Of a stretch of 64,000 nucleotides of DNA, positions 1,328 to 59,383 are shown piece after piece. The notes under the pieces were generated by a model. It did no database searches, was not told the DNA's origin, and saw only the letters and a list, made by a program, of their open reading frames with translations. The first letter of the stretch is position 1. Each line of letters begins with the position of its first letter. The position numbers were made by a program, and so were the translations under genes. Source of the stretch: Sphingopyxis sp. 113P3 (GTDB lineage Bacteria; Pseudomonadota; Alphaproteobacteria; Sphingomonadales; Sphingomonadaceae); NCBI RefSeq assembly GCF_001278035.1, contig NZ_CP009452.1, positions 901,501 to 965,500 on the forward strand, written 5' to 3'.

Positions 1328-2791
1328 GTGAGCGTCAAAGTCGAAACATTGATATTGTTCGGGGCCACGGGCGATCTTGCGCACCGGATGCTGTTCCCCT
1401 CGCTTTACAATCTCCACATGGACGGCTTGCTCGCCGACACGTTGACGATCATCGGGTCGGGAAGGAGCCCCCTCGATCGCGCTGCCTTCCAATTGCAGGT
1501 GCGCGAAGCGCTCGGCGAGCATCTTGCCGAAGACCGGTTCGATGCCGCCATGGCCGAGAGCTTCCTCAAGAGGATTGACTATTGCCCGGTCGATGCGGGC
1601 TCGGGCACGGGATACGAGGATCTTGCCGCCCTGCTCGGCGATCGCATGACCCGCCCGATCGGTGTCTATCTTTCGACCCCGCCCTCGATGTTCGGACCGA
1701 TTGCACAGGGGCTTGCGGCGGCGAATATCGCGTGCGCCGAATGCCGTATCGCGATGGAAAAGCCGATCGGGCACGATCTTGCCTCATCGCGCGAGGTGAA
1801 TGCCCAGGTCGGCGATGCCTTCGCTGAGGATCGGGTGTTCCGTATCGACCATTATCTCGGCAAGGAAACGGTGCAGAACCTGCTCGCGCTGCGCTTTGCC
1901 AACATGTTGTTCGAGCCGCTCTGGAACGCACAGGCGATCGACCATGTCCAGATCACCGTCGCCGAGACCGTGGGGCTTGAGGGGCGTGTCTCCTATTATG
2001 ACGGGGTCGGCGCGCTTCGCGACATGGTGCAAAACCACATGCTGCAGCTTCTTGCGATTATCGCCATGGAGCCGCCCGCGAGCGTATCGGCAACAGCGGT
2101 GCGCGACGAGAAGGTGAAGCTGCTTCGCAGCTTGCGCAAGATGCGCGCCGAGGATGTCAAATCCCTGAGCGTAAAGGGTCAATATACCAGCGGGGCGGTC
2201 GGCGGGCAGGCGGTCGCGGGTTATGCCGACGAACTTGGAAAGCCGTCGAACACGGAAACCTTCGTCGCCTTGAAGGCGTTCATCGACAATTGGCGCTGGA
2301 AGGGCGTGCCCTTTTACCTGCGTACCGGCAAGCGCATGCCACAGCGCCAGTCCGAGGTGCTGATCCAGTTCAAGCCGGTGCCGCACAATATCTTCGCGCG
2401 CGTCGGCGCGCCCAGGCTCGACCCCAATGTGATGATCATCAATCTGCAGCCCGAAGAGAATATCCGCGTCAAGGTCATGGCAAAGCAGCCGGGCCTCGAC
2501 CGCGATGGCGTTCGGCTGAAGGAGGTCAATCTCGACGTCTCGCTCTCGCACAGCTTTGCTGGCGAGCGGCGGCGGATCGCCTACGAGCGGTTGCTGCTTG
2601 ATTTCATCGAAGGCGACCAGACGCTGTTTGTGCGCCGCGACGAGGTCGAGGCGCAGTGGGAGTGGATCGATTCGATCCGCAATGCCTGGGCGGACGTTGA
2701 CCTTGCACCGCAAAATTACACCGCCGGAAGCTGGGGCCCGTCCGCGGCGATCGCGCTGATCGAGCGTGACGGGGCGAGCTGGCATGATTGA
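1328..2791 (+). CDS. zwf: Glucose-6-phosphate 1-dehydrogenase
   Basis: Oxidises glucose 6-phosphate to 6-phosphogluconolactone with NAD(P)+, the entry step of the Entner-Doudoroff route. The product is 487 residues, the normal size. The N-terminal nucleotide fold shows GATGDLAHR (residues 12-20) and the substrate-binding signature RIDHYLGKE lies near residue 172. I chose the GTG at 1328 because a GGGGAG ribosome site precedes it and the protein then begins just before the first beta strand; the frame stays open upstream to 1199, giving an unlikely 43-residue extension. First gene of a zwf-edd-eda set. Confidence 0.96.
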   Translation: MSVKVETLILFGATGDLAHRMLFPSLYNLHMDGLLADTLTIIGSGRSPLDRAAFQLQVREALGEHLAEDRFDAAMAESFLKRIDYCPVDAGSGTGYEDLAALLGDRMTRPIGVYLSTPPSMFGPIAQGLAAANIACAECRIAMEKPIGHDLASSREVNAQVGDAFAEDRVFRIDHYLGKETVQNLLALRFANMLFEPLWNAQAIDHVQITVAETVGLEGRVSYYDGVGALRDMVQNHMLQLLAIIAMEPPASVSATAVRDEKVKLLRSLRKMRAEDVKSLSVKGQYTSGAVGGQAVAGYADELGKPSNTETFVALKAFIDNWRWKGVPFYLRTGKRMPQRQSEVLIQFKPVPHNIFARVGAPRLDPNVMIINLQPEENIRVKVMAKQPGLDRDGVRLKEVNLDVSLSHSFAGERRRIAYERLLLDFIEGDQTLFVRRDEVEAQWEWIDSIRNAWADVDLAPQNYTAGSWGPSAAIALIERDGASWHD

Positions 2792-2980
2792 AGGAGCTTC
2801 CCTCGCGCGCCGGGTGGATCGGATGGATTTTCATCCTTGCCTGGCTGCTGCACGCCCGGAGCCCGGGAGGGATCCTGGCTTGCCGCTCACCCTTCCTCTT
2901 CTCACCCATCTGAGGCGGCGCAGCGCGCTGCTTCGCCTGCACATCCCCTGCCCCATTGAGGCGGGGGGATTGGAATTCTC
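2792..2980. other. Intergenic region between zwf and edd
   Basis: 189 bases with no convincing gene. In many related bacteria 6-phosphogluconolactonase (pgl) sits near zwf; it is not here. No clear terminator was seen, so zwf and edd may be co-transcribed. Confidence 0.5.
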
Positions 2981-4822
2981 ATGACCACGCTTCACCCCGC
3001 CATCGCCCGCGTGACCGAGCGCATCATCCGCCGCAGCGCCGAGCGCCGCGCCGCCTATCTTGCGCTGATGGAACGCCAGCGCGAGGCGGGGACCAATCGC
3101 GGCGTGCTCTCGTGCGGCAATCTCGCGCACGGCTTTGCAGCAGCGGGGGACGACAAGCCGGCGATCCGCGGGGGGAGGGCGATGAATATCGGCATCGTTA
3201 CCGCCTATAACGACATGCTCTCGGCGCATCAGCCCTATGGCCGCTATCCCGAACAGATCAAGCTTGCAGCGCGCGAGAAGGGTGCAACGGCGCAGGTCGC
3301 GGGCGGCGTGCCTGCGATGTGCGACGGCGTGACACAGGGCCAGGCGGGGATGGACCTGTCGCTCTTCAGCCGCGACACGATCGCGCACGGGACCGCGATT
3401 GCGCTCAGCCATGCAATGTTCGAAGGCGCGCTCCTTCTTGGCATTTGCGACAAGATTGTTCCGGGCCTTCTCATCGGGGCGCTGCGCTTTGGTCATCTGC
3501 CGACGATCCTCGTGCCCGCGGGGCCGATGCCCTCGGGGCTTGCGAACAAGGAAAAGCAGCGGGTTCGCCAGCTCTACGCGCAAGGCAAGGCGAGCCGCGA
3601 CGAGCTTCTCGCTGCCGAGGCCGCCTCCTACCATAGTGCCGGCACCTGCACCTTTTACGGAACGGCAAACAGCAACCAGATGATGATGGAGCTCATGGGA
3701 CTCCACGTCCCGGGAAGCGCATTCGTCAATCCCGGCACGAAGCTGCGCCAGGAACTGACCCGCGCTGCAACGCACCGGCTGACCGAGATCGGGTGGGATG
3801 GCGATGACTATCGTCCGCTTGCGCGCTGCGTCGATGAAAAGGCGATCGTCAACGCAGCGATCGGTCTCCTCGCGACGGGCGGCTCAACAAACCATGCCAT
3901 TCATCTGCCTGCGATCGCGCGCGCAGCCGGGATCCTGATCGACTGGCAGGACTTTGATGAACTCAGCCACGCCGTGCCGCTGCTCGCGCGCGTCTATCCC
4001 AATGGCGCGGGCGACGTGAACGATTTTCGCGCCGCAGGCGGGATCGGCTTTGTCGTGCGCGAACTTCTGAACGCGGGACTGCTCCACGGCGATATCCTCA
4101 CCGTGAGCGGCTCGATCGAAGCCTATGCGAGCGAACCGCTGATCGAGGGCGATGAACTGCGCTGGGAGACCGCGCCCGCCGTATCCCGCGACGAGGCGAT
4201 GCTGCGCCCGGTGACCGAGCCCTTCTCCGCCGACGGGGGAATGCGGCTGCTTGCCGGCAATCTGGGCCGCGCGATCATCAAGACGAGCGCGGTGGCCGAG
4301 GACCGCTGGACGATCGAGGCGCCCGCGCGCATCTTTGATGACCAGAATCAGGTGATCGAGGCCTTCAAGGCAGGCGAACTCGATCGCGATGTGGTCGTCG
4401 TCGTCCGCTTCCAGGGGCCGCGCGCCAATGGCATGCCCGAACTCCACAAGCTGACCCCGCCGCTCGGCGTCCTTCAAGACAAGGGTTACCGCGTTGCGCT
4501 CCTCACCGACGGGCGCATGTCGGGCGCGAGCGGGAAGGTGCCCGCGGCGATCCATCTTTCGCCCGAGGCGCTGCCGGGCGTCGACGGCGCGAGCGGTCCG
4601 CTCGCCTATTTGCGCGACGGCGACATGGTGCGCGTGTGTGCAAGAAGAGGCGAGGTCACCGCGCTGGTCGACGAGGCCGAGTGGGCGGCGCGGGCTCCCG
4701 CCGCGCCCCCGCCGCCTGCGCTCGGTGTCGGACGCGAGCTCTTCGCCTTGTTTCGTATCCACGCGGACGAGGCAGAAAGAGGGGGCTCTGCGATATTGGC
4801 GGCGATGGACAGCGTCACCTGA
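2981..4822 (+). CDS. edd: 6-phosphogluconate dehydratase
   Basis: Dehydrates 6-phosphogluconate to 2-keto-3-deoxy-6-phosphogluconate (KDPG), the defining step of the Entner-Doudoroff pathway. The 613-residue length matches the family (about 600). IlvD/Edd signatures include [16 protein letters not shown] in the first third, the GTANSNQ segment, and [18 protein letters not shown] in the middle; the conserved cysteines are expected to hold an iron-sulfur cluster. The ATG at 2981 fits homologue N-termini (a run rich in Arg and Glu). It lies downstream of zwf and 104 bases upstream of eda, consistent with one operon for glucose oxidation to pyruvate and glyceraldehyde 3-phosphate. Confidence 0.96.
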
Positions 4823-55321: not shown

Positions 55322-55602
55322 TCGACATAGCCGGGGTGGCGATCTATTGTGGCGCGCAAAGATGGCGCGCGCGGTGCCGAGCGCCGCGGCTCATCCTCGA
55401 ATGCCTTGCGGCAATCGAGGTAGCGCTGCGTCGAGCCGTCCGGCATCTCGCGCTTGTTGACGAACCAGTGGTTGCCTAGCGCGATGGTGAAGCTCATCCG
55501 GTTGAGCGTCGCCGCATAGTTTTCGAGGAACGACAGGTCGATGGCCCCGCCGCCGTCCCCGCCATTCTGCTGGCGCCGGACCATGATTGCATTGCTAGCC
55601 AT
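55318..55602 (-). CDS. Phage protein of unknown function, after replication gene
   Basis: 94 residues, Met-Asn-Gly-rich beginning (VRRQQNGGDGGGAIDLSFLE), then MSFTIALGNHWFVNKREMPDG and RYLDCRKAFEDEPRRS. Overlaps the replication gene by 8 bases. Position after an O-like gene would suit a helicase loader, but it is too short and has no P-loop, so that role is unlikely. Confidence 0.55.
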   Translation of the reverse strand: MASNAIMVRRQQNGGDGGGAIDLSFLENYAATLNRMSFTIALGNHWFVNKREMPDGSTQRYLDCRKAFEDEPRRSAPRAPSLRATIDRHPGYVE

Positions 55603-56248
55603 ATGCGCCCTCCAGGAGCTTGGTGAATGATTTGGATTGCAGGAAGAAATCGAAGTCTGCCTTCCAGTCGGTCTTCTCGCCCCGGCAGAAGGGCGAGCGC
55701 TCGATGGCGTCCAGCGCCGCGGCGAAGTCGTCTGGAGGATGCTGCGCGATCATCGTTCGGAGACGCTTGCGGCGAGCGTCTGTCAGCCGCACGACCTTGG
55801 CGAGACCAATCCGGCTTGCCGTGTCGTTCCATGCCTCAACGACATGCTCAGGTTTCAAAGCCTCAGAATTTTCGTCGGGGGGCGTATCAGCGTTAGCTGA
55901 TACAGGGGGAATGGAGGTTCTTGATGGTTTGGGTGCAGATTTTGCGGGGGTTTGACGCAATTTCTGCGGGGGTGCAGATTTTGCGGGGGTGCAGATTTTG
56001 CGGGGGTCGAGAATGTATTTCGGGCTGGTCCCGTTTCGACCTTCGATCTCGAAATAACCCTGTTCCTTGAGCCACTTCAGCGCTGTCTGAACCGTGCGTT
56101 CTGACTTGCTCGTCTTGCGCATGATAGTGGCGACAGAAGGCCAGCAGACTCCCTCGTCGTTGGCGTGGTCGCAAAGGCTCATGAGCACCATCTTTTCGGT
56201 GCTCCCGATGTCCAGATCCCACGCAGCTGAAAGGAGGCGGATGCTCAT
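55595..56248 (-). CDS. Replication initiator, lambda O-like (HTH_36 type)
   Basis: 217 residues. N-terminal winged helix (SSTEKMVLMSLCDHAND-type region, then CWPSVATIMRKTSKSERTVQ and ALKWLKEQGYFEIEG), a Pro/Lys-rich linker coded by iteron-like repeats, and a C-terminal segment (FCRGEKTDWKADFDFFLQSKSF) that is typical of phage replication proteins of this type. The origin probably lies inside the gene, as in lambda O. Coupled to the upstream DnaA-like gene (4-base overlap). Confidence 0.75.
   Translation of the reverse strand: MSIRLLSAAWDLDIGSTEKMVLMSLCDHANDEGVCWPSVATIMRKTSKSERTVQTALKWLKEQGYFEIEGRNGTSPKYILDPRKICTPAKSAPPQKLRQTPAKSAPKPSRTSIPPVSANADTPPDENSEALKPEHVVEAWNDTASRIGLAKVVRLTDARRKRLRTMIAQHPPDDFAAALDAIERSPFCRGEKTDWKADFDFFLQSKSFTKLLEGAYG
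55932..56006. repeat. Iteron-like repeats within the replication gene (candidate origin)
   Basis: Three exact copies of GGTGCAGATTTTGCGGGGG at 55932-55950, 55971-55989 and 55988-56006, plus a diverged copy at about 55951-55972. The last two are 17 bp apart, not a multiple of three, so the repeat is kept at the DNA level rather than as a protein repeat. Fits O-type initiator binding sites. Confidence 0.65.
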
Positions 56249-56457
56249 CTAGCCCTCTGCGCGTTGCGAAGGATCGCTTCGATGCACTTGTGATCGCGAG
56301 CCAGGATGCGCCCGATCGCCCTCAGGGATAGACCCTTGCCGCGAAGCTCAACGATGGCCTGGGCGCGGGCGCGACGGATCGGGTGGCGCTGTGAACGCCC
56401 CCGTAGATCCGCGATGCTGAGGCCGTGCGAGCGTGCAACGCTGGTCAGCGTGTCCAT
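56245..56457 (-). CDS. DnaA domain IV-like DNA-binding protein
   Basis: 70 residues. LTSVARSHGLSIADLRGRSQ, RRARAQAIVELRGKGLSLRA IGRIL then RDHKCIEAILRNAQ follow the C-terminal DnaA domain (helix-turn-helix plus the D-H signature loop). It lacks the AAA+ ATPase domain, so it can bind DNA but not melt it. Directly upstream of the O-like gene. It may recruit or compete with host DnaA; inference. Start ATG 56457 overlaps the DUF1064 remnant's stop. Confidence 0.7.
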   Translation of the reverse strand: MDTLTSVARSHGLSIADLRGRSQRHPIRRARAQAIVELRGKGLSLRAIGRILARDHKCIEAILRNAQRAR

Positions 56458-56562
56458 CAGAACCGCTCCTCCACCCACTCGCCCTTGACCCGCTGGATCG
56501 CGACGAACTGGAAAGGATACTGAGACGCCGCGACCTTGATCTTGACGCGCGCGTCGTCGGCA
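56457..56562 (-). pseudogene. Orphan 3' end of a DUF1064 gene
   Basis: The 34 codons before the TGA at 56457-56459 read [20 protein letters not shown] then VAIQRVKGEWVEERF, which aligns with the end of the intact DUF1064 protein at 57108 ([20 protein letters not shown]). No start codon or ribosome site of its own. It lies directly after the HNH gene, so it is a leftover of an older allele whose upstream part was replaced. Confidence 0.7.
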
Positions 56563-57060
56563 TCACTTGGGAGAGCGGTTTGACGCCTGCTCTTTAGGGG
56601 TGGCCCAGCGGCAATTTCCTGGCTCGTAGTCACCGTCGTTGTCGATGCGATCAATCGACAGGCCGGGCCTCCAGCCTTGTCCCATGTCTGCGAGAAACCC
56701 CTCAAACGATGACCATTGCTGGCAAACTTTAATCCCGCGCCCGCCATATCGGTGGAATCGGTTATGGTTCGGATTGCCACATCGCGCGTGCATTTGCGCC
56801 CATGACGTATAGATCGGGCTAACCTTGCCCCCAGATGCATGGCCGTGGGTAGAGACCTTTTCAGCGACCTTTTTGTAGCGCGTGCACCCGCAACTTTGGA
56901 CCGATCCATTCCGTAAATGCGATGTCCGAACACGCTTGGTATTTCCACAGTCGCACCGGCAGCGCCAAAAGACTCTGCCCTGCGCGTCGCGACCGTCTTG
57001 TTCTTGTGCAGTGAGTGTTCCAAACCTCTGTCCAGTCAAATCTAAAGCATTGTAATGCAT
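56563..57060 (-). CDS. HNH homing endonuclease
   Basis: 165 residues. [17 protein letters not shown], the zinc site [20 protein letters not shown] and [25 protein letters not shown] and the HNH-proximal [19 protein letters not shown] then [13 protein letters not shown] are typical for phage HNH proteins. Lower GC than its neighbours. It sits between an intact DUF1064 gene and the orphan 3' end of another, in the same direction. Confidence 0.85.
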
Positions 57061-57107
57061 GGCAATATCTCCATAAGTCCAATAGGACTTTGTTAGACCA
57101 TTACCAC

Positions 57108-57479
57108 TTAATATTCAACCGTCCTCCACCCGCCGCCTTCATTTTTGGGGATCGGGAAGGCGACCAGAAACCTGAACGGCATCACTGCGGATGCCGCCCT
57201 CACCTTGACCTTGGCGTCGTCCATGAAAATCCGGGGATGCCCTTTGACTTCATGGCATTCCAGTTGACCATTGCGGCTCAAGACGGCATAATCCGGCGTG
57301 TAAAAGCAGTTCTTGCCGATGCGGATTTTCCAAGGCTCGAACGCATACCAGAGGACTTCCCCCGCCTGCATCGCTGGCTTGAGAACATCATCTTCATAGG
57401 CGATTTCGGTCTTGTTGCGCTCACCCTGCTTTAGCCGACCGAGGGCGCGCATCCGCATCGAAGGTTTGAGGGCGATCAT
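57108..57479 (-). CDS. DUF1064 protein, PD-(D/E)xK nuclease-like
   Basis: 123 residues. [20 protein letters not shown], then YTPDYAVL and ECHEVKGH give a Glu, Pro-Asp, Glu-x-Lys arrangement of the PD-(D/E)xK nuclease fold; the protein ends [15 protein letters not shown]1064 proteins occur in phage replication-recombination regions in place of RusA-like resolvases, so a structure-specific nuclease is likely. Overlaps the HTH gene upstream by 4 bases. Confidence 0.78.
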
Positions 57480-57706
57480 ACCAACCCCTCCAGCCTGTAG
57501 CCGAGCGCCCGCCCGCGGCCTCCACCGCTTATGGTGACGCCTTTCTTCCTCATGTTGCAGATCATCACCTTGACCGACGTCGGGGTGCTGTCGAGCGCGC
57601 TGGCGATATCCTTGCAGGTCATTCGCTTGTCCCTGCGGATAAGCAGGTCAGCGATTGCCCGCTCGCCGCGCGTGAGGGTGTCTGGATCGCGCCTTGGGAG
57701 TCTCAT
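57476..57706 (-). CDS. Small winged-helix phage regulator
   Basis: 76 residues: LTRGERAIADLLIRRDKRMTC, KDIASALDSTPTSVKVMICN, MRKKGVTISGGGRGRALGYRL form a clear winged-helix with a basic wing. Resembles phage replication or late regulators. Coupled to both neighbours by ATGA. Confidence 0.7.
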   Translation of the reverse strand: MRLPRRDPDTLTRGERAIADLLIRRDKRMTCKDIASALDSTPTSVKVMICNMRKKGVTISGGGRGRALGYRLEGLV

Positions 57707-58485
57707 GCGGCGAGCCTTTCCGCCTCAATGGAAGCGAGAATGGCGCGGCCGATCAGTTCGGGGATTTGAGGGACTACGGCGTTTCCGAGGGCCGCAAGTC
57801 GGTGTGGAACGTCGGGAACCCCATCATGTCTTCCACAAATTCTGGATTGGGGAAGATTGGATCGTCCGGGCCATCGCGCAAAACTTCCCTCAGGTTGGAG
57901 AAGCAGGTCCCGCTGCCCAAGTATCGGCCCTTCGGGGATCCCTTGCTGTCCGCACTCTTTGTTGGGGTAGGCAAGTACCCATACTCTGTCCCGTCGATGC
58001 CAGGCGCCAACGTAGGAAGCTGGTATGCAATGCCATTCCGCATCATACCCGAGCGAGGCCAGGTCTCCGAGAACTCTGCCAAACCATCCGCCACGTTGCT
58101 CAGTTGGGCCACTAAGCAGATTTGCGACGTTCTCCACGATGATGAAGGACGGTCGAATTTCGCCAGCCAATCGACAGATTTCAGACCAAAGGCCGCTTCG
58201 CGTGCCGCCCTCGATACCAGCTCGCAAGCCGGCGATGGAAACGTCTTGGCACGGGAAGCCGCCGGTAACGACATCGACGGCAATTCCATCAACATTGAGT
58301 CGCTGCGCGGTAAGCTCTCTGACGTCTCGATAGCAGGGGACGTCGGGCCAGTGCTTTGCAAGGACACGGCGGGGGAACTCCTCTATTTCACAGAAGGCGA
58401 CGGTCTCGAAACCGCCCGTGCGCTCAAGCCCCAGGCTGAAACCTCCGATGCCGGAAAAGAGATCGAGGACTTTGAGCTTGCTCAC
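57703..58485 (-). CDS. DNA cytosine-5 methyltransferase
   Basis: 260 residues. All key motifs are present in order: LDLFSGIGGFSLGLE (I), GGFPCQDVS with the catalytic Cys (IV), IIVENVANL (VI), HRRDRVW (VIII), and LAALGNAVVPQIPELIGRAI (IX-X). The target recognition region between VIII and IX is short (about 60 residues), so the enzyme is smaller than most. No restriction enzyme adjoins it, so it is an orphan, presumably for protection from host restriction. ATGA-coupled. Confidence 0.92.
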   Translation of the reverse strand: MSKLKVLDLFSGIGGFSLGLERTGGFETVAFCEIEEFPRRVLAKHWPDVPCYRDVRELTAQRLNVDGIAVDVVTGGFPCQDVSIAGLRAGIEGGTRSGLWSEICRLAGEIRPSFIIVENVANLLSGPTEQRGGWFGRVLGDLASLGYDAEWHCIPASYVGAWHRRDRVWVLAYPNKECGQQGIPEGPILGQRDLLLQPEGSFARWPGRSNLPQSRICGRHDGVPDVPHRLAALGNAVVPQIPELIGRAILASIEAERLAA

Positions 58486-58667
58486 CCCGCCCTCCGCTTT
58501 TCCCAGCCCTTGTGGGCGGCCTGAGAGCGTGCTTTCCGCCCCTCCCGACGACGAGCGAGAACCTTGTCCAGATCGGCTTCGGTGAGCACGACAGGACGGC
58601 GGCCAGCGACTGTGAGCGGGGCAGTGCGGGCGAGGGCGAAGCGAATGCGGCGGATGAGGCGGATCAT
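58482..58667 (-). CDS. Small basic phage protein
   Basis: 61 residues from ATG 58667: MIRLIRRIRFALARTAPLTV, LTEADLDKVLARRREGRKAR and QAAHKGWEKRRAG. Arg/Lys-rich and helical, coupled by ATGA to both methyltransferase genes. May bind DNA; unknown. Confidence 0.55.
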   Translation of the reverse strand: MIRLIRRIRFALARTAPLTVAGRRPVVLTEADLDKVLARRREGRKARSQAAHKGWEKRRAG

Positions 58668-59383
58668 GCTGCCTCTCCGTCCAGAAAGAGGTCGCCTTGA
58701 CGCTGAGCGTCCTCGATGCGCTTGCAGGCTATGTCGAAAGCGTCGGGGCATATCTCTATGCCAATGAAATTCCGGCCTTCCCGCATACAAGCGACGCCCG
58801 TGGTGCCAGCCCCCATGAAGGGGTCACACACAGTGTCGCCTTCGCGGCTGTAATCGCTCACTAGAAGCTGCATTAGGCGCGTAGGCTTGCCGCCCATGCG
58901 TTCTTTGTCGTTCCAGCCTTCATTGGCGATATAGCCGCCGCGAAGGGTGCCCCATTTACTCTGCGCTTTAGTGCGCGAAACGACGATCCAGTCTGTCCAT
59001 GAGCAAGGGCCATCACCTGCGAGCCTTACGCTGCGGCCAGAATGGAAATAAGGAAGTGGAGCAAAGGTTGTGCGACCAAGGCGATCAAATTCCCGCCTCA
59101 GCGGAGCGGCAAGTTCCGAGTCTGTCAGCCAAACGATCCAGCCGGGGCAATTATGGAGCAACGCAGCCAGCCTCAGAGCATCCGATTCAGATAGCGCGGA
59201 ATAGCCTAGTTCGCGGGCAGCCGCTCCGTCACGGCGCCGCAGAGACTGCTTGTCGTGGGAGCCATGCGTCCGCTGACTATACGGCGGATCAGTGATAATG
59301 TGATCCGCAGCAATTCCTGGCAGCAGCTCAAGCGCATCCCCGCAATAGAGCGTCGCCCGCCCGATGGTGACAACCTCACTCAC
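58664..59383 (-). CDS. DNA adenine/cytosine-N4 methyltransferase (beta type)
   Basis: 239 residues. Catalytic DPPYSQ (about residues 33-38) precedes the SAM-binding FMGAGTTGVACM (about 195), the order of beta-class N6-adenine or N4-cytosine methyltransferases. TRLMQLLVSDYSREGD and GIEICPDAFDIACKRI are further family segments. Specificity cannot be read. Second orphan methyltransferase of the early operon. Confidence 0.9.
   Translation of the reverse strand: MSEVVTIGRATLYCGDALELLPGIAADHIITDPPYSQRTHGSHDKQSLRRRDGAAARELGYSALSESDALRLAALLHNCPGWIVWLTDSELAAPLRREFDRLGRTTFAPLPYFHSGRSVRLAGDGPCSWTDWIVVSRTKAQSKWGTLRGGYIANEGWNDKERMGGKPTRLMQLLVSDYSREGDTVCDPFMGAGTTGVACMREGRNFIGIEICPDAFDIACKRIEDAQRQGDLFLDGEAA

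Follow-up and report, generated by a model that had tools for sequence, protein, structure and literature searches.

A candidate homing cassette in a Sphingopyxis prophage: a replacement 3′ end for a DUF1064-type gene, coupled to a free-standing HNH gene

The window (the whole 64,000-nt stretch analysed here) includes a prophage, recognizable by its O-like replication gene and its terminase, portal, virion protein and amidase genes. In it, very probably, lies a homing cassette, composed of a replacement 3′ end for a DUF1064-type gene together with a free-standing HNH endonuclease gene. Four elements of this reading are established by sequence comparison: the DUF1064 gene is a hybrid, its old end lies displaced behind the HNH gene, empty alleles exist, and the arrangement recurs elsewhere. 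From these we infer cutting and homing.

The prophage locus

An earlier note on this DNA had described an intact DUF1064 gene, an HNH gene and a start-less fragment, in that order on the minus strand, and the sequence bears this out. The DUF1064-type gene (57108-57479) has 123 codons and is intact. It is followed by an A+T-rich spacer of 47 nt (57061..57107; GC 0.404), by the 165-codon gene for the proposed homing enzyme (56563..57060), and by the displaced old DUF1064 3′ end (56457..56564), which overlaps the HNH stop by 2 nt and has no usable start codon. Within the displaced end is a Shine-Dalgarno-like GGAGGAG (56466..56472) for the next gene (56245..56457); the ATG of that gene overlaps the stop codon in which the displaced end terminates, and its product resembles the DnaA C-terminal helix-turn-helix (HTH) domain (PF08299, E 7.5e-6, below cut-off). 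The G+C content is 63% in the displaced end, 60% in the flanks, 55-57% in the DUF1064 and HNH genes, and 40% in the spacer; this composition weakly fits a mosaic origin of the locus. The frame of the displaced end stays open backwards through the HNH gene, giving a 188-codon shadow ORF (56457-57023) that we take to be spurious.

A hairpin in the spacer region encloses the ribosome-binding site and start of the HNH gene (fold z −3.51 for 57030-57130) and may throttle translation of the endonuclease. A similar stem (GGTAATG...CATTACC) was seen by eye in locus L010, where the HNH protein is 80% identical to that of the window and occupies the same position. Just upstream in the prophage are genes for a C5-cytosine and an N4/N6 DNA methyltransferase (57703-58485 and 58664-59383).

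The window HNH protein matches phrog_374, “HNH endonuclease” (E 9.7e-66), which places it in a superfamily known for homing; HNH proteins include non-homing enzymes too. No Pfam family matched it, and a solved-structure search with the HNH alignment gave no match. The gene is present in a single copy in its genome, and a protein search of 385 genomes of the class found matches in four, the window's own included. A group I or II intron around the HNH gene was considered and rejected: a comparison of 55500-58500 with Rfam gave no match at E 1, and so no known intron family at the locus, and the DUF1064 gene is whole.

The DUF1064 protein of the window matches no Pfam family at E 0.1, and its relatives P0017 (24.0 bits) and L010 (23.6) fall just below the 24.7-bit cut-off of PF06356 (DUF1064); the gene is therefore named by kinship. 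DUF1064 is counted among the PD-(D/E)XK nuclease families (PMC1913061). Across 30 relatives, the PD...E-x-K-like residues D63 and K79 are invariant and E77 is nearly so. Most DUF1064 proteins end in E-V-K-G-(FW)-x-D-D-A-R, here called the W type. The window and L010 proteins have three additional residues after E-V-K-G, and a third form has F/Y-M-x-(D/E)-D-A-N. “Non-W” is used below for any C-terminus in which the W pattern was not found, which takes in some distant, unplaced sequences (L438, L006, L446-L449), and “patch” for a non-W C-terminus that precedes an HNH gene.

The hybrid gene and its uninterrupted alleles

The fragment behind the HNH gene is diverged from the intact DUF1064 C-terminus, as the earlier note had it, and is slightly longer than the 34 codons it gave: 35, plus a stop. 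At aligned codons the two agree in 14/35 residues and 52/105 nt, with a local alignment score (56) reached by 0 of 10,000 shuffles. By itself the fragment matches phrog_18669 (E 2.9e-9) and, weakly, phrog_190 (E 0.006), both of which the intact protein matches also. The possibility that it is an independent expressed gene, which the earlier note had named as an objection to its own reading, was rejected for the window because the sole possible start (ATG, GTG, TTG or CTG) is codon 31. The family phrog_18669 (54 positions, function unknown) matches solely the DUF1064 C-terminal part, in the window at 56457-56564 and 57108-57239, and may have been built from displaced gene ends annotated as genes.

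If the fragment is an old gene end, an uninterrupted allele should carry it as its natural C-terminus. One does, at the protein level: P0017, an uninterrupted metagenomic DUF1064 protein, ends in a sequence identical to the fragment in 32/33 aligned residues (BLAST; among the best 120 of 398 relatives). P0098, P0047 and the viral locus L421 (26/33 residues) are further uninterrupted sequences that end like it. When P0017 was used as a query against viral contigs, the window's own phage was the sole match. A DNA search of phages and plasmids for the closest relatives gave short pieces only, the longest covering 177 bases of 1601, and just one of 196 related genomes besides the window's own had a DUF1064 match.

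The intact window gene agrees with P0017 in 16/16 residues over codons 1-16 (57432..57479), which are likely recipient sequence, and then progressively less: 23/32 over residues 17-48, 19/32 over 49-80, and 11/43 over 81-123. Over codons 17-80 (57240..57431), which hold D63, E77 and K79 and are possibly co-converted donor sequence, the nearest relatives are P0002 and P0003; P0002 agrees in 29/32 residues over 17-48 and 26/32 over 49-80, falling to 16/43 over 81-123. For the patch itself (codons 81-123 and stop, 57108..57239, with a three-residue insertion after HEVKG), the nearest of the ten relatives compared is P0006 (25/43). The gene is thus a mosaic, P0017-like at its outer ends only (codons 1-16 and the displaced end), with other sequence in between. 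Gene conversion around a cut would be expected to produce such a mosaic, which as a static trace is compatible with the co-conversion looked for in a homing element. The earlier note's proposal that the HNH element brought a new DUF1064 3′ part is supported on this evidence, with cutting and homing as its presumed means; the HNH-linked tract may reach further back than proposed, to about codon 17, since residues 17-80 match P0002/P0003 better than P0017.

Elsewhere, uninterrupted sites can be aligned as DNA. Locus L092 aligns with the uninterrupted L104 over 327-854/319-852 and again over 1345-1633/882-1170, and therefore has 490 nt where L104 has 29. Similarly, L253 aligns with L240 (Achromobacter marplatensis) over 2139-2401/2495-2757 and 2939-3075/2786-2922, and L010 with L155 over 2018-2232/2507-2721 and 2949-3048/2760-2859. 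Element-free alleles at the same site are thus available in L104, L240 and L155 for DUF1064, in phage KEN_01 for the head gene of phage AP22 discussed below, and, at protein level only, in P0017 for the window. The cultured phage Pam5 also has an uninterrupted DUF1064 gene.

By sequence matches, not trees, the displaced end resembles the recipient lineage: P0017 for the window, L240 for L253, L098/L104 for L092, and L155 for L010. For eight loci we correlated how closely the N-terminal part resembles each of 245 native alleles with how closely the remnant (the displaced end) does, and likewise with how closely an equally long piece of the patch does. The coefficients, remnant then patch, are 0.15 and −0.13 for the window, 0.47 and −0.08 for L010, 0.36 and 0.02 for L255, 0.54 and 0.32 for L253, 0.48 and 0.48 for L336, 0.06 and −0.06 for L092, 0.27 and 0.24 for L256, and 0.02 and 0.09 for L252. 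The remnant correlates clearly better than the patch in three or four of the eight, but not clearly so in L336, L092, L256 or L252; for L336 and L256 the resemblance of the remnant to the recipient lineage is equivocal. Ranked by its N-terminal part, the best remnant match comes 3rd for the window (P0017), 1st for L253 (L240), 2nd for L092 (L098), 12th to 51st for L336, L010, L255 and L256, and 205th of 245 for L252, where likeness of the remnant to the recipient lineage is accordingly not borne out.

Recurrence at DUF1064 loci and in other genes

A scan of 219 loci with a full DUF1064 frame (some contigs repeated), using an end-anchored C-terminal profile over at most 2.5 kb downstream and two HNH profiles, found an HNH gene no more than 800 nt downstream in 13 distinct loci, repeats being counted once. 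Displaced 3′ ends are present in nine of these, namely the window, L010 (=L118), L336, L092 (=L251), L255 (=L420), L253, L256, L252 and L418 (L257 and L260 are identical to L256 over the compared stretch and were counted with it). The L418 remnant, identical to L144, is just 21 nt long and was found by DNA alignment. No remnant was found in the other four, L164, L208, L335 and L428. All nine remnant loci are non-W, and three of the four without a remnant are W type (Fisher p 0.014, from counts made by eye). Among 185 distinct DUF1064-query genes, an HNH gene of the two families lies close downstream in 5/31 non-W and 2/154 W-type genes (p 0.0016, kinship ignored). Neither HNH family is seen close downstream of the other 26 non-W genes (one, L422, has a third type), so a non-W C-terminus alone is no sign of invasion.

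The HNH proteins at DUF1064 belong to two families with a mutual identity of 21-31%; that of L092 matches HNH_3 (E 6.1e-9). The HNH protein carries the remnant as an in-frame extension in L336, L092, L255, L253 and L256, and so do the HNH proteins P0134, P0155 and P0161 (among the best 120 of 7991 matches; protein only); in the window, L010 and L252 remnant and HNH gene are in different frames. A fusion by frameshifting was considered for these, the remnant being in the +1 frame after the HNH stop in the window and L010; in L252 it is in another frame, and therefore nothing is read into this idea.

Two pairs of loci are informative about how the parts move. L010 and L255 are one lineage, in which the old 3′ end is the same and the endonuclease in front of it differs: their N-terminal parts are 81% identical, their downstream DNA 92% and their displaced ends 90% (as DNA), with just 23% for HNH and 56% for the patch. 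In the second such pair, L253 and L336, the N-terminal parts are 85% and the HNH proteins 31% identical, and the patches are similar (79%); patch and enzyme thus do not always travel together, since here the patch type is shared and the HNH family is not.

Other enzymes were noticed next to DUF1064. L422 (171-997), a sister of L418 (DUF1064 N-terminal part identical in 70/71), has a third endonuclease type, NUMOD4 plus HNH_3, where L418 has its HNH gene; a displaced end was looked for by eye in this locus and none was seen. In L222 (2515-2830), a different HNH gene, McrA-like by eye, lies between DUF1064 and a replication gene that in L200 follows DUF1064 directly.

The old end may be kept for what it contains. 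In 109/133 uninterrupted genes with a close next start (167 distinct genes examined), the final DUF1064 codons contain a Shine-Dalgarno-like sequence for the gene that follows, and six of the nine displaced ends keep it (window, L253, L336, L092, L252, L418). In L010 and L255 it is at or just behind the remnant stop; in L256 no next start was found behind the remnant. The 21 nt of L418 amount to a Shine-Dalgarno-like signal, a stop and the next start. Several patches likewise carry a Shine-Dalgarno-like ending before the HNH start. Since the length of the remnant varies from 35 codons down to these 21 nt, the right-hand joint is not fixed.

The layout was also sought at HNH genes in general. 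A first survey for duplications, using raw local alignments in all frames, was swamped by wrong-frame noise in G+C-rich DNA; it was replaced by a test anchored at the sequence ends, with permuted pairs and a mirror comparison for 5′ ends, which lets some of this noise through. The C-terminus of the gene upstream of HNH was compared with peptides ending behind HNH in 235 loci, 214 of them with an upstream frame, the null being permuted pairs. At a score of at least 44 there were 11 cases observed and 0.67 expected; the 5′ mirror gave 1 observed and 0.5 expected. The 11 comprise three DUF1064 loci (L118, L253, L420), five other genes, and three that resemble wrong-frame noise (L011, L259, L032). 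The window is not among them, since the rule calls for an alignment that runs to the ends and that of its remnant with its patch stops short.

In L413 and L414 (about 1915-3340), an HNH gene lies between a NinB gene and a displaced NinB C-terminus; the upstream protein of L413 matches PF05772 (E 1.6e-43), and L414 is NinB by its likeness to L413. The displaced end of L413 is matched by 10 of 50,697 phage records, and the eight matches listed are all annotated NinB. In L363 (1834-3060) the HNH gene comes after a phrog_874 gene (function unknown) and before a displaced copy of that gene's C-terminus (..NPWVWVVEF..). The upstream gene is a small one without a family in survey case L393, and has an endonuclease VII-like start in survey case L300.

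Of 13 HNH loci of cultured phages, the 12 with annotated neighbours (all except L455) were tested for the layout. Acinetobacter phage AP22 (L453, NC_017984), with a score of 45, was the sole case of the layout; the next best scores, 40 (L460) and 33 (L463, whose “upstream” gene is not adjacent), looked like chance. In AP22 (946-2649), a Mu-F-like head gene (PF04233, E 8.6e-10) with a patch ending in CRKCLIIDIPETI is followed by an HNH gene (phrog_374, E 6.1e-71) and then by a displaced 3′ end, the start-less FRCRKKLIIEIPDKPYQNN and a stop. In phage KEN_01 (L470, 56-835) the head gene is uninterrupted, ends in CRCRAKLIIEIPDNPYQNN, and is followed by the same DNA as in AP22; the two align over 946-1629/56-739 (88%) and 2605-2773/791-972 (82%). 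The AP22 stretch is matched by 80 records, eight of them over at least 80% of its length, and five relatives were examined. The arrangement in YNAF is as in AP22. AB1 (L468) has at AP22's HNH position (1089-1526) a different gene, of unknown family and without a PHROGs match; a changed head-gene end precedes it, and YQNN plus a stop survives behind it. AB1 might be read either as a patch with other cargo, or as a case in which the HNH gene was later replaced.

Proposed mechanism, alternatives and known systems

As a mechanism, we suggest that the HNH enzyme would cut immediately behind the conserved catalytic E-V-K-G codons of an uninterrupted allele, and that repair from the donor would then copy the donor's 3′ end along with the HNH gene. 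The target frame would stay whole through the copied 3′ end, and the recipient's own 3′ end would be left behind the HNH gene, where it would keep the ribosome-binding site of the next gene and might provide the right-hand homology arm when the cycle repeats. Since the patch differs just after E-V-K-G, the hybrid would be resistant to the enzyme.

Ordinary phage mosaicism might produce the same picture without homing, if two DUF1064 alleles had been joined by illegitimate recombination and the HNH gene was simply carried along at the junction. The window gene is after all a three-part mosaic, L336 and L253 combine the same patch type with different HNH families, and nuclease genes have been reported at exchange boundaries between phages (PMC10448857). 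It seems nonetheless an unlikely explanation: two HNH families occupy one and the same position in this gene, in the same orientation, the excess on the 3′ side (11 vs 0.67) has no 5′ counterpart (1 vs 0.5), and the presence of HNH goes with an exchanged C-terminus (5/31 vs 2/154). Two C-termini of differing type in tandem might by themselves equally suggest paralogues, that is, two adjacent DUF1064 genes, the second truncated at its 5′ side and the gap filled by the HNH gene. This we regard as very improbable, given that none of the 219 stretches with a full DUF1064 frame has a second one, that the uninterrupted L104, L240 and L155 run through the site, and that in L253, L092 and the window the remnant and the N-terminal part indicate the same uninterrupted alleles.

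The displaced end might, finally, be functional, as a tail of the HNH protein or as the translation start region of the next gene. The in-frame fusions in five loci and three further proteins (L336, L092, L255, L253, L256, P0134, P0155, P0161) would fit the former, set against the out-of-frame remnants of the window, L010 and L252; for the latter speak the ribosome-binding sites in the 3′ coding ends of 109/133 uninterrupted genes and in 6/9 remnants, and the 21 nt of L418, which hold little else. We entertain this reading tentatively, as somewhat less than an even proposition; it accounts for the retention of the old end and not for its origin, and is therefore compatible with a homing cassette, so that its likelihood is not to be added to those of the other readings.

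The homing-cassette reading has a close parallel in the mORFs of fungal mitochondria, in which a foreign C-terminus is joined to an endonuclease ORF in Glomus atp6, atp9, cox2 and nad3 and in Allomyces macrogynus atp6, the native C-terminus of the hybrid being displaced behind the endonuclease ORF, in or out of phase (PMC3630166). In both, the endonuclease ORF lies downstream of a hybrid gene, the C-terminus is borne by the element, and the native end is displaced; the hybrid character of the upstream gene, with core and C-terminus of different lineages, is seen here in the segment identities and the pairwise comparisons. The Glomus cases, as described there, are mitochondrial and encode LAGLIDADG or GIY-YIG enzymes, whereas the phage cases here have HNH; the phage HNH gene, moreover, often overlaps or abuts the patch, and the displaced end can hold the ribosome-binding site of the next gene. 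The window element, in a prophage and not a fungal mitochondrion, is therefore mORF-like in its working, outside the mitochondrial set.

Phage insertions are also known that split genes into two working parts, for example in gene 43 of phage 25 and in nrdA (PMC2988022). The elements described here resemble such T4-type elements in being free-standing phage endonuclease genes in conserved genes, and homing with co-conversion of the flanks is on record for the latter; they differ in leaving one intact hybrid gene and a start-less 3′ end, not two reassembling polypeptides. The mobE insertion in nrdA of Aeh1 is an example of the T4 type. Introns and inteins with homing endonucleases leave the product of their target intact although the element lies within the coding region; here no splicing is needed, the protein being whole upstream of the HNH gene. 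The elements e14 and phage 21 in icd use a comparable rescue, an element-borne replacement 3′ end restoring the attachment gene and displacing the old end; they rely on an integrase and an att site, whereas the cassette here is without an integrase gene.

No phage example of this design was found in the open-licence full-text literature, which most subscription papers lie outside, and it is not mentioned in the accessible portions of PMC10448857, PMC12724721 and PMC5936750. The mORF hybrid anatomy is known from fungal mitochondria; new here is its occurrence in phages, where it involves HNH enzymes and affects several target genes. The design suggests how a free-standing homing endonuclease can establish itself in conserved coding sequence without a self-splicing intron or an intein. 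It also calls for caution with short C-terminal protein families: such families, phrog_18669 for one, may consist not of genes but of displaced gene ends. An endonuclease-driven origin of hybrid genes in phages would become directly testable, both alleles being present in the cultured Acinetobacter phages AP22 and KEN_01.

More broadly, and here we find the case for and against evenly balanced, phages might host a general class of HNH homing genes, each with a target-specific replacement 3′ end that would keep the target whole, recode the cleavage site and so confer immunity, and supply the ribosome-binding site of the endonuclease, the displaced end providing the signal of the next gene and a homology arm. 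If so, repeated rounds would cause the 3′ ends of DUF1064, NinB, the Mu-F-like head protein and others to evolve by endonuclease-driven allele swaps.
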